Assembly (NCBI GenBank): GCA_937966115.1
Contig: CALCKX010000083.1
Location: forward strand, 1-64,000
DNA: 64,000 bases
Source of the DNA: an uncultured Chloracidobacterium sp.
GTDB lineage: Bacteria; Acidobacteriota; Blastocatellia; Chloracidobacteriales; Chloracidobacteriaceae
Direction: 5' to 3'
Under the pieces are notes generated by a model that saw only the letters and a program-made list of their open reading frames with translations, was not told the origin of the DNA and did no database searches. Shown piece after piece: positions 21,554-26,564 of this stretch. The first letter of the stretch is position 1. The number at the start of each line of letters is the position of its first letter. The translations under genes and the position numbers were made by a program.

Positions 21554-21859
21554 GCGCGCCGCGCCCGACTCGGCGCGAGCGGAGACATTGGCGCGGCGAC
21601 GCTCAGGGCCTGCCCGGACGCGATTGCCGCTTGCGGAGGCGAGCGCCGGGCTTCGCCGAGAGGCCTGCAAGTCGCCCCTCGGCTCAGGGGCGGCGTCTCA
21701 GCCTGGTCTCCGGCGGGCGGCCCCAACGCCGCGTCAAGCTCTAGGCTGGGAAGGGTTCGCGCCTGTCCCCGAGCCATATCCCTGTTCCCGAGCCAGGTCT
21801 CGGCGGCAAGCGCGCAGGCGGCCCCGGACGCCCGGCGCTTGAGTCTCCCTCTCGCCCGC

Positions 21860-24259
21860 ATGCGACTCATTGATCGCTATCTCATTCGGGAAATCCTGCC
21901 CTACGCCGCGACGGTCTTCTTTTTGCTGACGGCGGTGATTTTCATTCACGAGGCGGGGCGCTTTTCAGAGCTCTTTGTCGTGTTTTCTCGGCGCGGCTTG
22001 TCGAGCGCGCCGCTGATCCGGCTGGTTTTGTCGCTGCTGCCGGGCATTGTCATTTTCACCCTTCCAATTGGCTTCCTGGTCGGCGTCACCATGGCGATGG
22101 GGAGACTGTCGGGGGATCGCGAGATTGTCGCGCTCCGGGCGAGCGGCGCGGGTCTCTGGCCGCTGTTGCGCCCAACGCTCGCCGTCGGCCTCGTCGTCAT
22201 GGCGGCGACCGGCTACAACACGTTCTACCTTCTCCCGACGGCGGTCAACTCGCTCAATCAACTCAAGAAAACGCGCTCGGAGCTGTTGCTGCGCAGTATT
22301 GAGACATACATCAAGCCCGGCGCGTTCACGGAAGACCTGCCGGGTAAGATCCTCTACGTTGATCGCGGCGACGGCGAGGGCGCTTGGCAGCGGATTTTTA
22401 TCGCCGAGATAGCGGAGCGCTCAGATCAGGAGCCAAAAATCTATGCCGCCGAGTCAGGGCGGCTGGCGCTGGGCAAGACCTTGCAGGATAGCGAGCTACG
22501 GCTCGAGCGGGCGCGGATTTACAGCCAGGAGCCGCGTCAGCCGGATGAGGCGGTCAGCTACTTTATGAATGCCTCCGGCAAGCTGACGGCCAGCTTCTCG
22601 CTTGGCAGGGGCGATGAGACCAACCCCGACCTCCAGTCCCGCCCGCCCGGGCCGGAGCTGATGACACTCCCGGAGCTGTGGGTCTTCAAGCCGGCTGATC
22701 CGAGCCAGTCGCGGACCGTCGCCGCTGAAATCCAGCGCCGCCTGGCCCTGCCGGCGGCCTGTCTGATATTCGCGCTTTTCGGCATCGCGCTTGGGGTGAC
22801 GACGCTGCGCAGCGGACGGTCAGGCGGGCTGTTTGTCGGCGTCGCGCTGGCGTTGTCCTTTTACTTGCTGACGCTGGGCGGGGAGCGTTCCGCCCGTAGC
22901 GGCGCCGTCCCGGTGGCGGTTGGCATTTGGCTGCCCAATTTGCTGTTTCTGGGGCTGGCGCTGGCGATGCTGAGCGGCGGCGGCCGGCGGTTCGGGCGGT
23001 GGGCTGGGTGGAGGCGGCTCTGGCGCGCATGGGCGCGAATCGCGGAACTGTTCCCGCGCCTGGCCGCTTGGGCGCGGCGGGGGCGACCGGGGCGCGAAGG
23101 CGCCCGCCGCCCGCCGGGCCTGCCAGTCGCCTCGCCCTCGTCGCGTCGAATACGGCTTGGCTTCCCGCGGATCATCGACGGCATGATTTTTCGCGACGCG
23201 GCTCGATATTTCTTCCTCGTTTTGCTGAGCTTAGTCGGCATTTTCCACGTCTTCACCCTCTTTGAGCTGATTAACCCGATTGTGCAAAACCGCATTGGCT
23301 TTGGCGTCGTCGCGGGGTACCTGCTGTTTCTCACGCCGCAAATCTTGAACTACATGACGCCTTTCGCGGTGTTGGTCGCCACGCTCGTCACCTTTGGATT
23401 GCTGGCGAAATCGGCTCAACTGGTCGTGCTATACGCCAGCGGGCAGAGTCTATATCGGCTGTTCATTCCGGTTCTGCTCGGGGCCGGGCTGGCCTCTCTC
23501 GCCATGGCGGCGATGCAGGAGCTTATCCTGCCCGCCTCAAACCGGCGCCAGGATTACCTGCGCTATCAGATTCGGGGCGGCACGCTGCCCCCTCAGACCT
23601 TTCATCAAAAGAACCGCAAATGGTTTCGCGGACGCGATCACCGGATATTCAACTTTGCCGTGTTCGACACTGACCGCAATGAGTTCGCGAGCTTTAGCGT
23701 GTACGAGCTGCACCCGACCACGGCCATGCTGCTTTCGCGCACCTACGCCGCCAAAGCGCGCTGGGACGCGCTGACCGAGGAATGGGTGCTGACCGGCGGC
23801 TGGCGGCGAGCGTTTTCAGCCGACGGGCTGGAAACGAGTCGCCAGCCGCTGGCGGAAATGCGCCTCAGGCTGAGCGAGACGCCTGATTACTTCAAGCAGA
23901 GCGCGACCGATATTGCCAAGATGAGCATCGGGCAGTTGCAACAGCAAGTGACCGAGCTAACCGCCCAGGGGCTGGATGTCGAGAGCTTGCAGCGAGCGAT
24001 CCAAGCCAAGATCGCGGCGCCGCTCGCCTGTCTCGTCCTGGCGCTGGCGGGCGTTCCTTTCGCGCTGACGATTGGCCGCCGCGGCGCGATGGTCGGGGTC
24101 GCCATCGGCGTCGGCCTGGCGGCGCTGTTTTTGGGAACGACGAGCTTGTTCGAGCAGTTCGGCAACTACCGGATCCTGCCGCTGTTTTGGTCGGTCTGGG
24201 GGCCGAGCCTGCTGTTTGGGAGCGGCGGGGCGTATCTCTTGCTCTCCGCCAAGACATGA
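21860..24259 (+). CDS. Fused LptF-LptG lipopolysaccharide export permease
   Basis: N half MRLIDRYLIREILPYAATVFFLLTAVIF...GDREIVALRASGAGLWPLLRP; C half RIIDGMIFRDAARYFFLVLLSLVGIFHVFTLFELI...LLVVLYASGQSLYRL-like, ending PLACLVLALAGVPFALTIGRRGAMVGVAIG; one uninterrupted frame. Confidence 0.88.
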   Translation: MRLIDRYLIREILPYAATVFFLLTAVIFIHEAGRFSELFVVFSRRGLSSAPLIRLVLSLLPGIVIFTLPIGFLVGVTMAMGRLSGDREIVALRASGAGLWPLLRPTLAVGLVVMAATGYNTFYLLPTAVNSLNQLKKTRSELLLRSIETYIKPGAFTEDLPGKILYVDRGDGEGAWQRIFIAEIAERSDQEPKIYAAESGRLALGKTLQDSELRLERARIYSQEPRQPDEAVSYFMNASGKLTASFSLGRGDETNPDLQSRPPGPELMTLPELWVFKPADPSQSRTVAAEIQRRLALPAACLIFALFGIALGVTTLRSGRSGGLFVGVALALSFYLLTLGGERSARSGAVPVAVGIWLPNLLFLGLALAMLSGGGRRFGRWAGWRRLWRAWARIAELFPRLAAWARRGRPGREGARRPPGLPVASPSSRRIRLGFPRIIDGMIFRDAARYFFLVLLSLVGIFHVFTLFELINPIVQNRIGFGVVAGYLLFLTPQILNYMTPFAVLVATLVTFGLLAKSAQLVVLYASGQSLYRLFIPVLLGAGLASLAMAAMQELILPASNRRQDYLRYQIRGGTLPPQTFHQKNRKWFRGRDHRIFNFAVFDTDRNEFASFSVYELHPTTAMLLSRTYAAKARWDALTEEWVLTGGWRRAFSADGLETSRQPLAEMRLRLSETPDYFKQSATDIAKMSIGQLQQQVTELTAQGLDVESLQRAIQAKIAAPLACLVLALAGVPFALTIGRRGAMVGVAIGVGLAALFLGTTSLFEQFGNYRILPLFWSVWGPSLLFGSGGAYLLLSAKT

Positions 24260-24446
24260 CGCTTCAGCCCGCCGTCGCGTCAGTCGCCCGCCTTTTCGGA
24301 AGTTTTCCAGAAGTTCGGCAAGACAATGCCGCCTGCGCGGTGTTAGGCTTGATACACTCCGTAGGCTGAGGTAACAAGCCTCGACCAAAACCCATGTTTG
24401 TCACCCTCCCGTCCCGCTCGCGTCTCGAAGGCCCCCGCGCGACGGA

Positions 24447-24474
24447 GCGAATGAATGAGTCGTCATTCATTCGC
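24447..24474. promoter_or_regulatory. Perfect 12-bp inverted repeat GCGAATGAATGA-GTCG-TCATTCATTCGC; candidate FadR-like operator
   Basis: Read directly; lies 20 nt upstream of the ATG of the Fe-S oxidoreductase; half-sites TGAATGA-N4-TCATTCA. Confidence 0.8.
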
Positions 24475-24494
24475 CGGGAGCGTCCGCCCGCCCT

Positions 24495-26564
24495 ATGACC
24501 ATCAAAAACGCTATTTTTATCCTGTTCTTCTTCGCCGCGGTTGGCTATTTCCTGTTCAACGCCTGGCGATTGATTGAGTACATCCGCGTTGGCAAGCCGG
24601 AAAACCGCTTTGATAACCTGCCGCGCCGGCTCTGGGATTTGCTTGTCATCGGCTTTGCCCAGACGAAAATCATGCGCCACTGGTGGGCCGGGGCGCTTCA
24701 CGTCACCGTGTTCTGGGGCTTCTGCATCTTGACGCTGGCCTCGCTGGAGGTGGTTCTGGAGGGCTTTCACCCGCAGGCGTCGCTGTATTTCTTGCCGGGC
24801 TATGGCGCGCTGACGCTACTGCAGGACATTTTTGGCGCGCTGGTGTTGGCCGCTTCGGCGACCTTTCTCTTCCGCCGCTATGTCACGAAGCCAAAGCGAT
24901 TCTCCGGCGCGGAAATGAAGCCTGAGAGCCGCCTCGACGCCACCATCATCCTGGCGATGATCATCGCCCTCATGGCGACGATGTTTGTCGCCAATGGCAC
25001 GCACCCTGCCACCAACAGCGTCTATTTCGGGTACCGCCCCATCTCGGATGTCGTCGGCTTCTATCTGGGCGGGAATCAAAGCGAGCTGCTCTTCGAGGCG
25101 GCCTGGTGGACGCACGCGATCGTGCTGTTTGTTTTTCTCAACTACTTGCCTTTCTCCAAGCACCTGCACGTGATCGCCTCGCTGCCGAATGTGTTCTTCG
25201 CCTCGCATCAGTCGTCAGGCGTTTTGCCCAAGATGGACCTGGAAGCCGAAGACATCGAGACGTTCGGCGCCTCGGATGTCGAACACTTTACCTGGAAGCA
25301 ACTGTTTGACAGCTATACCTGTACCGAGTGCGGCCGCTGCACGGCAGTCTGCCCCGCCAACAACACCGGCAAGCCCCTCTCGCCTCGCAAGATCATGATG
25401 GACTTGCGCCATCGCATCGAGGAAAAGGGCGAGCTGACCATCGGCAAGCTCGGCGCCTTCACGAAGGGCGTCGCGGCGAATGGCGCCGGCAATGGCCACG
25501 GCGAGCTGCCGGAAGGCGTCAAGGATGCGCTAGCGCGCAAGATCATTGGCGAGGGGTTTATCACGCCCGAAGAGCTTTGGGCCTGCACGACCTGCCAGGC
25601 CTGCATGCAGGAGTGCCCGGTCAGCATCGAGCACGTTCCCACCATCGTGGACATGCGCCGCAATCTCGTTCTCCAGGAAGCCGATTTCCCCAGCGAGCTG
25701 AACACGCTCTTTACCAATCTCGAAAACAAATACTCGCCGTGGGCCTTCAGCCATGACGGGCGCGCCGATTGGGCGGATGGCCTGGAAATCCCGCTGATGT
25801 CCATGATCGAGGCCGACCAGAAAAACGTGGACGTGTTGTTCTGGGTCGGCTGCGCCGGCTCGTACGACGACCGCTACCGCAAAGTGGTGCAATCCGTCGC
25901 CCGGCTGCTCAAGCGGGCCGGCATCCCCTTCGCCATTCTCGGCAAGGAAGAGAAGTGCACTGGCGATCCGGCTCGGCGGGCCGGCAACGAATACCTCGCC
26001 CAGACCCTCATCCAGGAAAATGTCGCGACGCTCAACAGCTACAAGGCGCGCTTCAAGACCGTGCTGACTTCCTGCCCGCATTGCTTCAACGCCATCAAGA
26101 ACGAATGGTCGCAGTTTGGCGGGACCTTTGAGGTCATGCACCATAGCCAGTACTTGTCAAAGCTGGTCGCCGAAGGCCGCATCACGCCCACGCAAAAAAT
26201 CGAAGCCACGGCGGTCTATCATGATTCGTGCTATCTCGGGCGCTCGAACAACGTCTATGAGGAGCCGCGGCAAACGCTGGTTCAGATTGGCGCGAGGCTG
26301 ACCGAAATGGAGCGTTCGCGCGATAAGGGCATGTGCTGCGGCGCGGGCGGGGCGCGCATGTGGATGGAAGAAGCCGGCGAGCGAGTCAACGTCGAGCGCG
26401 CCCGGCAGGCGCTCGAAACCAAGCCGGATGTCGTGGCGGCGGCCTGCCCGTTCTGCCTGACCATGCTGACCGATGGCCTCAAGGCCCATGAGGAAGAGCG
26501 GGTGAAAGCCTTCGATATCGCCGAGTTGCTCGATCAGGCGACCGGCGGCGAAAAGCGCGTTTGA
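24495..26564 (+). CDS. Membrane-anchored (Fe-S)-binding oxidoreductase (FadF/YwjF / ETF:menaquinone oxidoreductase-like; HdrD-type CCG domains)
   Basis: N-terminal TM/heme-b-like region, CTECGRCTAVCPANNTGKPLSPRKIM and CTTCQACMQECPVSIEHV clusters, CCG motifs (SCPHC, KGMCCGAGGARMWMEE, AACPFCLTML). Confidence 0.85.
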   Translation: MTIKNAIFILFFFAAVGYFLFNAWRLIEYIRVGKPENRFDNLPRRLWDLLVIGFAQTKIMRHWWAGALHVTVFWGFCILTLASLEVVLEGFHPQASLYFLPGYGALTLLQDIFGALVLAASATFLFRRYVTKPKRFSGAEMKPESRLDATIILAMIIALMATMFVANGTHPATNSVYFGYRPISDVVGFYLGGNQSELLFEAAWWTHAIVLFVFLNYLPFSKHLHVIASLPNVFFASHQSSGVLPKMDLEAEDIETFGASDVEHFTWKQLFDSYTCTECGRCTAVCPANNTGKPLSPRKIMMDLRHRIEEKGELTIGKLGAFTKGVAANGAGNGHGELPEGVKDALARKIIGEGFITPEELWACTTCQACMQECPVSIEHVPTIVDMRRNLVLQEADFPSELNTLFTNLENKYSPWAFSHDGRADWADGLEIPLMSMIEADQKNVDVLFWVGCAGSYDDRYRKVVQSVARLLKRAGIPFAILGKEEKCTGDPARRAGNEYLAQTLIQENVATLNSYKARFKTVLTSCPHCFNAIKNEWSQFGGTFEVMHHSQYLSKLVAEGRITPTQKIEATAVYHDSCYLGRSNNVYEEPRQTLVQIGARLTEMERSRDKGMCCGAGGARMWMEEAGERVNVERARQALETKPDVVAAACPFCLTMLTDGLKAHEEERVKAFDIAELLDQATGGEKRV

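Follow-up and report, generated by a model that had tools for sequence, protein, structure and literature searches.

The perfect palindrome at positions 24447–24474 of the window (the whole stretch of 64,000 nucleotides from an uncultured Chloracidobacterium sp. analyzed here) is, judging from sequence comparisons, almost certainly where a FadR-type repressor of fatty-acid degradation docks on the DNA. We consider it very likely that this site is the operator of the genome's own FadR (YsiA)-type TetR repressor, and that release of the repressor by acyl-CoA derepresses together a fadF/etfD gene, a fad gene cluster and a gene for a lipase-like protein. Computation established the sequence of the operator, its conservation, its specificity at genome scale, the genes that follow it and the orthology of the regulator to Bacillus FadR.

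The palindrome and the gene behind it

The sequence GCGAATGAATGAGTCGTCATTCATTCGC (24447–24474) is made of two 12-nt arms, 100% complementary and separated by the 4-nt spacer GTCG. Written as GCGAATGAATGA-GTCG-TCATTCATTCGC, this 28-bp palindrome has zero mismatches, in agreement with the original prediction, and it is the sole inverted repeat of at least 10 nt within positions 24300–24560. Its end lies 20 nt upstream of the ATG at 24495, as had been proposed, while the end of its 18-bp core lies 25 nt upstream. The core, TGAATGA-GTCG-TCATTCA (24452–24469; like the palindrome, not assigned to a strand), is a FadR-type operator predicted from sequence match and conservation, with a left half-site TGAATGA on the forward strand (24452–24458) and a right half-site, the reverse complement of TGAATGA, on the reverse strand (24463–24469), both delimited on the same grounds. 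The pattern TGAATGA-N4-TCATTCA occurs once in the window, with 0 mismatches; chance alone would give about 0.8 sites at 3 mismatches or fewer in a sequence of this length, so that it is the perfect match that counts. The outer 5 bp of each arm are particular to the window genome and vary among relatives, and the functional unit is therefore the 18-bp core and not the 28-mer. A promoter scan found no sigma-70-like promoter near the box.

The predicted target of the operator is the gene at 24495–26564 on the forward strand, coding for a 689-amino-acid fadF/etfD-like membrane Fe-S oxidoreductase. The only solved relative of this protein is the mycobacterial EtfD (9ojn, E-value 1.2e-134), which joins ETF to quinone and differs by a long disordered C-terminus (PMC13083937). 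The protein shares 39% sequence identity with Paenibacillus FadF and has the membrane region, the 4Fe-4S dicluster and the two CCG domains of EtfD/FadF-type ETF:quinone oxidoreductases. Its assignment to the FadF-like family, made in the original prediction, thus holds for family membership but has to be qualified for the cysteines: the VGC, EEKC and SCPHC cysteines of the first CCG domain are retained, whereas Paenibacillus FadF has lost them, which brings the protein nearer to mycobacterial EtfD in cysteine content. Because these cysteines are kept, the protein probably carries a linear [3Fe-4S] cluster, as described for mycobacterial EtfD and other Acidobacteriota (PMC13083937). The gene is preceded by an lptF/lptG-like permease gene on the same strand and followed by lytB (ispH), and since the latter is on the opposite strand, fadF/etfD is probably transcribed alone. 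To our knowledge, no FadR box has been described at mycobacterial EtfD. Positions 21839–24259 of the window encode an 806-amino-acid protein that matches LptF/LptG permeases twice and may be a fused or duplicated permease for LPS export.

The FadR regulator and the three boxes of the genome

We scanned the 2.80-Mb assembly of the window genome, which is 85% complete, so that further sites may be missing. Three perfect cores were found, together with no site at 1 mismatch and five at 2 mismatches, while the reversed pattern used as a control gave 2 matches in all, none of them perfect; with uniform bases, about 0.004 perfect cores would be expected per Mb. The three perfect cores precede fadF, the cluster fadR-fadD-fadN-fadA-(250-aa gene)-fadE, and a gene encoding a secreted lipase-like hydrolase. 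The cluster behind the second box encodes a TetR protein (fadR, G000:C2:70821-71498), an acyl-CoA ligase, a 3-hydroxyacyl-CoA dehydrogenase/enoyl-CoA hydratase, a thiolase, a 250-amino-acid protein without family assignment and an acyl-CoA dehydrogenase that scores above the cut-off of the Bacillus FadE model (853.6 bits against 600). The genome-wide scan recommended with the original prediction therefore returned copies at fatty-acid genes, namely at fadR-fadD-fadN-fadA-fadE in this genome and at etfBA and fadE in relatives, and the genome does possess a TetR gene of the FadR type.

The regulator has its best PDB matches with B. subtilis FadR (1.5e-36, 129.6 bits) followed by B. halodurans FadR, the next family scoring 64 bits, about 65 lower; its closest named records are from Blastocatellia, Acidobacteriota. 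It combines a TetR helix-turn-helix domain (PF00440, 55.4 bits, cut-off 24) with a YsiA-like C-terminal domain (PF08359, 83.6 bits, cut-off 21), the architecture of the broad TetR-family FadR (YsiA) clade, whose Bacillus members are its closest relatives in sequence, fold and tree. Sequence identity with B. subtilis FadR reaches 58% in the DNA-binding domain, where the recognition helix GVADGT[V/I]YLYF is nearly identical in the two proteins, and 27% in the ligand domain, where motifs such as E-R-S and GALDE are conserved across the clade. The AlphaFold model (mean pLDDT 83.5) superimposes on the Bacillus FadR entries 3whb, 3whc and 5gpc, the stearoyl-CoA-bound form among them, with a TM-score to target of 0.91–0.94 and an rmsd of 1.4–1.8 Å, compared with a TM-score of 0.70 for Thermus FadR. 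In the tree, 35 FadR sequences are grouped against two other TetR proteins with support 100/99. On the NCBIfam model NF053878, the Bacillus FadR equivalog, the regulator obtained 186.3 bits for a cut-off of 200, the next model being at 71.5 bits; because this score is 14 bits below the cut-off yet 115 bits above every other model, sequence comparison places the regulator as an orthologue in a wider FadR clade, outside the Bacillus-tuned model.

The third box (C77:2202-2219) is perfect and lies 23 nt upstream of the start of the lipase-like gene (L011:2243-3118, on contig G000:C77). Gene and box recur together in genomes of the same genus and in two further relatives (G007 and G009). The name lipase is based on a GHSMGG-type serine motif (HSMGG) and weak alpha/beta-hydrolase matches; no Pfam or NCBIfam cut-off was reached, and the AlphaFold model of the protein is poor (mean pLDDT 43). 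The etfBA genes of the window genome have no box. A 2-mismatch site before fadE (C2:77871) was discarded, as it is the coding sequence for MFERSFK, constant as protein and drifting as DNA in the relatives, one of which has a separate perfect box 160 bp beyond the equivalent position; the other 2-mismatch sites were set aside since their count is near the control level. The FMO bacteriochlorophyll protein is encoded in the window genome and in the two same-genus relatives tested, and in no control genome, so that the organism is very probably a chlorophototroph.

Conservation of the box and alternative readings

Across ten genomes of the family, no block other than the 18-bp core is conserved in front of fadF, the flanks, spacer and outer arms being variable, and the original prediction thus passed the check that the palindrome be conserved in related species. 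The box precedes fadF in all ten, including one where the end of the contig falls one base within the box, every other core base being correct. In one relative (G007, L024:1440-1461), two boxes overlap upstream of fadF at a 4-bp offset, one perfect and one with 1 mismatch, in a single extended palindrome.

A set of 60 relatives (305 Mb) contains 108 perfect cores, for about 1 expected with uniform bases and 0 matches to the reversed pattern. FadR and box are both present in 50 of these genomes and both absent from 7, FadR being found alone in 1 and the box alone in 2 (Fisher p = 7e-7, a value that treats related genomes as independent and so overstates their independence). Among the distinct boxes examined in Blastocatellia, 40 of 46 are directly upstream of fadR, fadN, fadE, fadF, etfB or the lipase-like gene, and six other Blastocatellia (G047, G053, G035, G050, G043 and G058; loci L063-L065, L068, L070 and L217) have an etfBA with its own perfect box. 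In family f8 (G020, G024, G032, G036, G040, G051), regulator and operator appear from the sequences to have been lost jointly, as both the FadR orthologue and the box are absent; a FadF-like gene is found in five of the six genomes.

The proposal that the operator is conserved across distant phyla was borne out. We examined 80 named fadR-like loci, mostly from metagenome assemblies and assigned by record label to Acidobacteriota, Desulfobacterota, Myxococcota, KSB1 and Methylomirabilota: in 70 of them a box that is perfect or has 1 mismatch lies close to the fadR start, and the reversed pattern gave no such match. At least one perfect core, and up to 7, was found in 17 of the 20 whole genomes tested from other groups, and in a phylum sample of 197 genomes the box occurs in all 22 of the class and in 21 of the 175 others. 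The comparison with Bacillota is based on two natural sites. A B. subtilis record has TGAATGAATAGTCATTCA just upstream of fadR and no other site within its 20 kb, with half-sites and spacing identical to those of the window, as originally claimed, and the Paenibacillus record has TGAATGAGGATTCATTCA, with the same core, between the divergent fadF and fadR. TGAATGA-N4-TCATTCA is thus found at fad genes and at fadR itself, as in the broad FadR (YsiA) clade. A B. subtilis record labelled as a plasmid (NZ_CP035408.1, L248) holds the chromosomal genes uvrC, sdhCA, etfA and fadR; it seems to be a piece of the chromosome that was wrongly filed.

The possibility that the palindrome arose by chance, which could be raised for one palindrome in 64 kb since this is a single observation, is already refuted by conservation: the three perfect cores of the genome are all upstream of fatty-acid or lipid genes, the core is invariant in ten genomes and the reversed pattern is absent from the 60 relatives. 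A role as RNA, either as a 12-bp hairpin in the fadF leader or as the terminator of the upstream lptFG-like gene, would suit perfectly complementary arms placed between two same-strand genes; it is nevertheless highly improbable. The terminator scan found neither a terminator nor a T-run at the palindrome, so the hairpin followed by a T-run typical of an intrinsic terminator is absent, and the same core precedes unrelated genes. Furthermore, relatives keep the exact letters of the 7-nt half-sites and lose the outer stem, with no compensatory pairs; since the letters are conserved and not the pairing, a protein-binding DNA site is to be preferred to an RNA element.

A protein-binding site might still serve another TetR-family paralogue, or a FadR induced not by long-chain acyl-CoA but by another compound, such as an acyl-CoA that is branched or of medium chain length. 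The inducer could indeed differ because only 27% identity to B. subtilis FadR is left in the ligand domain, and the genome contains three further TetR-like matches. We consider this reading unlikely, though less so than a role as RNA, because the box sits at fadR itself in 70 of the 80 loci, its presence tracks that of FadR, and the recognition helix matches that of Bacillus FadR, whose own gene has the same core, while the TetR matches other than FadR orthologues score below 80 bits.

Predicted regulon, comparison with known systems and age of the pair

In the preferred reading, where the box is an operator of the genome's own FadR, the binding of the protein, repression and the role of acyl-CoA as inducer are attributed by analogy with the FadR family. 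In B. subtilis, FadR represses five fad operons, fadF included, and is inhibited by C14-20 acyl-CoA (PMC4525379). Here, a FadR dimer would occupy TGAATGA-N4-TCATTCA, 25 nt upstream of the fadF/etfD start codon, and would block the initiation or the clearance of transcription. Long-chain acyl-CoA made from incoming fatty acids would then bind FadR and release it from DNA, leading to the joint derepression of three units: fadF/etfD, for ETF-to-quinone electron transfer; fadR-fadD-fadN-fadA-(250-aa gene)-fadE, which would provide activation and beta-oxidation, with fadR autoregulated; and the secreted lipase-like hydrolase. A phototroph is thus predicted to induce the ETF:quinone link, beta-oxidation and a secreted lipase-like enzyme at the same time.

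This kind of system, a TetR FadR/YsiA regulon, is already known, whereas the present member, its spread over phyla and its lipase-like target seem not to have been described before, going by the literature searched. The B. subtilis and B. halodurans regulons share with it the half-sites, the 4-bp spacing, the recognition helix, the fold (TM-score 0.91–0.94), the autoregulatory position at fadR and the targets fadR, fadN-fadA-fadE, fadF and etfBA, the last in relatives only. They differ in that the spacer bases vary, the ligand domain is 27% identical, the Chloracidobacterium genes form one compact fadR-fadD-fadN-fadA-fadE unit with an extra secreted lipase-like target, and the Fe-S enzyme among the targets retains the additional cluster cysteines seen in EtfD. 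The Thermus thermophilus FadR (TTHA0101) is likewise a TetR protein controlling fatty-acid degradation with an acyl-CoA ligand (PMC5597230; 3anp), but its operator TTRNACYNRGTNYAA is unrelated in sequence to the box, which is not of the Thermus type, and the protein itself is much more distant from the regulator (46 vs 129 bits, TM-score 0.70 vs 0.93). The FadR of Sulfolobus acidocaldarius and the proteobacterial PsrA and FadP are also TetR regulators of fatty-acid degradation (PMC6449355, PMC5343134); they were set apart as separate TetR groups, as published, none being the regulator's closest match. Within the limited coverage of our search, the literature yielded no reconstruction of a FadR regulon in Acidobacteriota, nor any experimentally studied fatty-acid regulator in this phylum and the other, mostly uncultured ones. 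The box provides a rule, at the level of sequence, with which fatty-acid regulons can be predicted both in Acidobacteriota and in several phyla that are mostly uncultured.

In the midpoint-rooted tree, the Bacillota FadR form a single branch next to the remaining sequences and the Acidobacteriota group together, a topology that fits better with an old descent of FadR than with a recent transfer, without proving it. We give roughly even chances to a scenario where FadR and its box are an ancient pair that already existed when Bacillota separated from Acidobacteriota, Desulfobacterota and Myxococcota, the letters of the operator having hardly changed while the ligand domain diverged to about 27–29% identity; in the Chloracidobacterium family, the pair would have been extended to the secreted lipase-like hydrolase, linking in a phototroph the breakdown of extracellular lipids to beta-oxidation and electron transfer. 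As the operator has barely changed while the sensor domain diverged, the evolution of TetR sensing could be tested with one DNA probe. Five loci of Acidobacteriaceae type (L100, L102, L105, L107 and L115) share an asymmetric form of the box whose right half-site is TCATTCG. At two others, about 170 bp (L141) and about 65 bp (L154) upstream of fadR, the palindrome ACTGAAT-N4-ATTCAGT, with half-sites 4 bp closer, replaces the usual box and may reflect either a changed operator spacing or chance.
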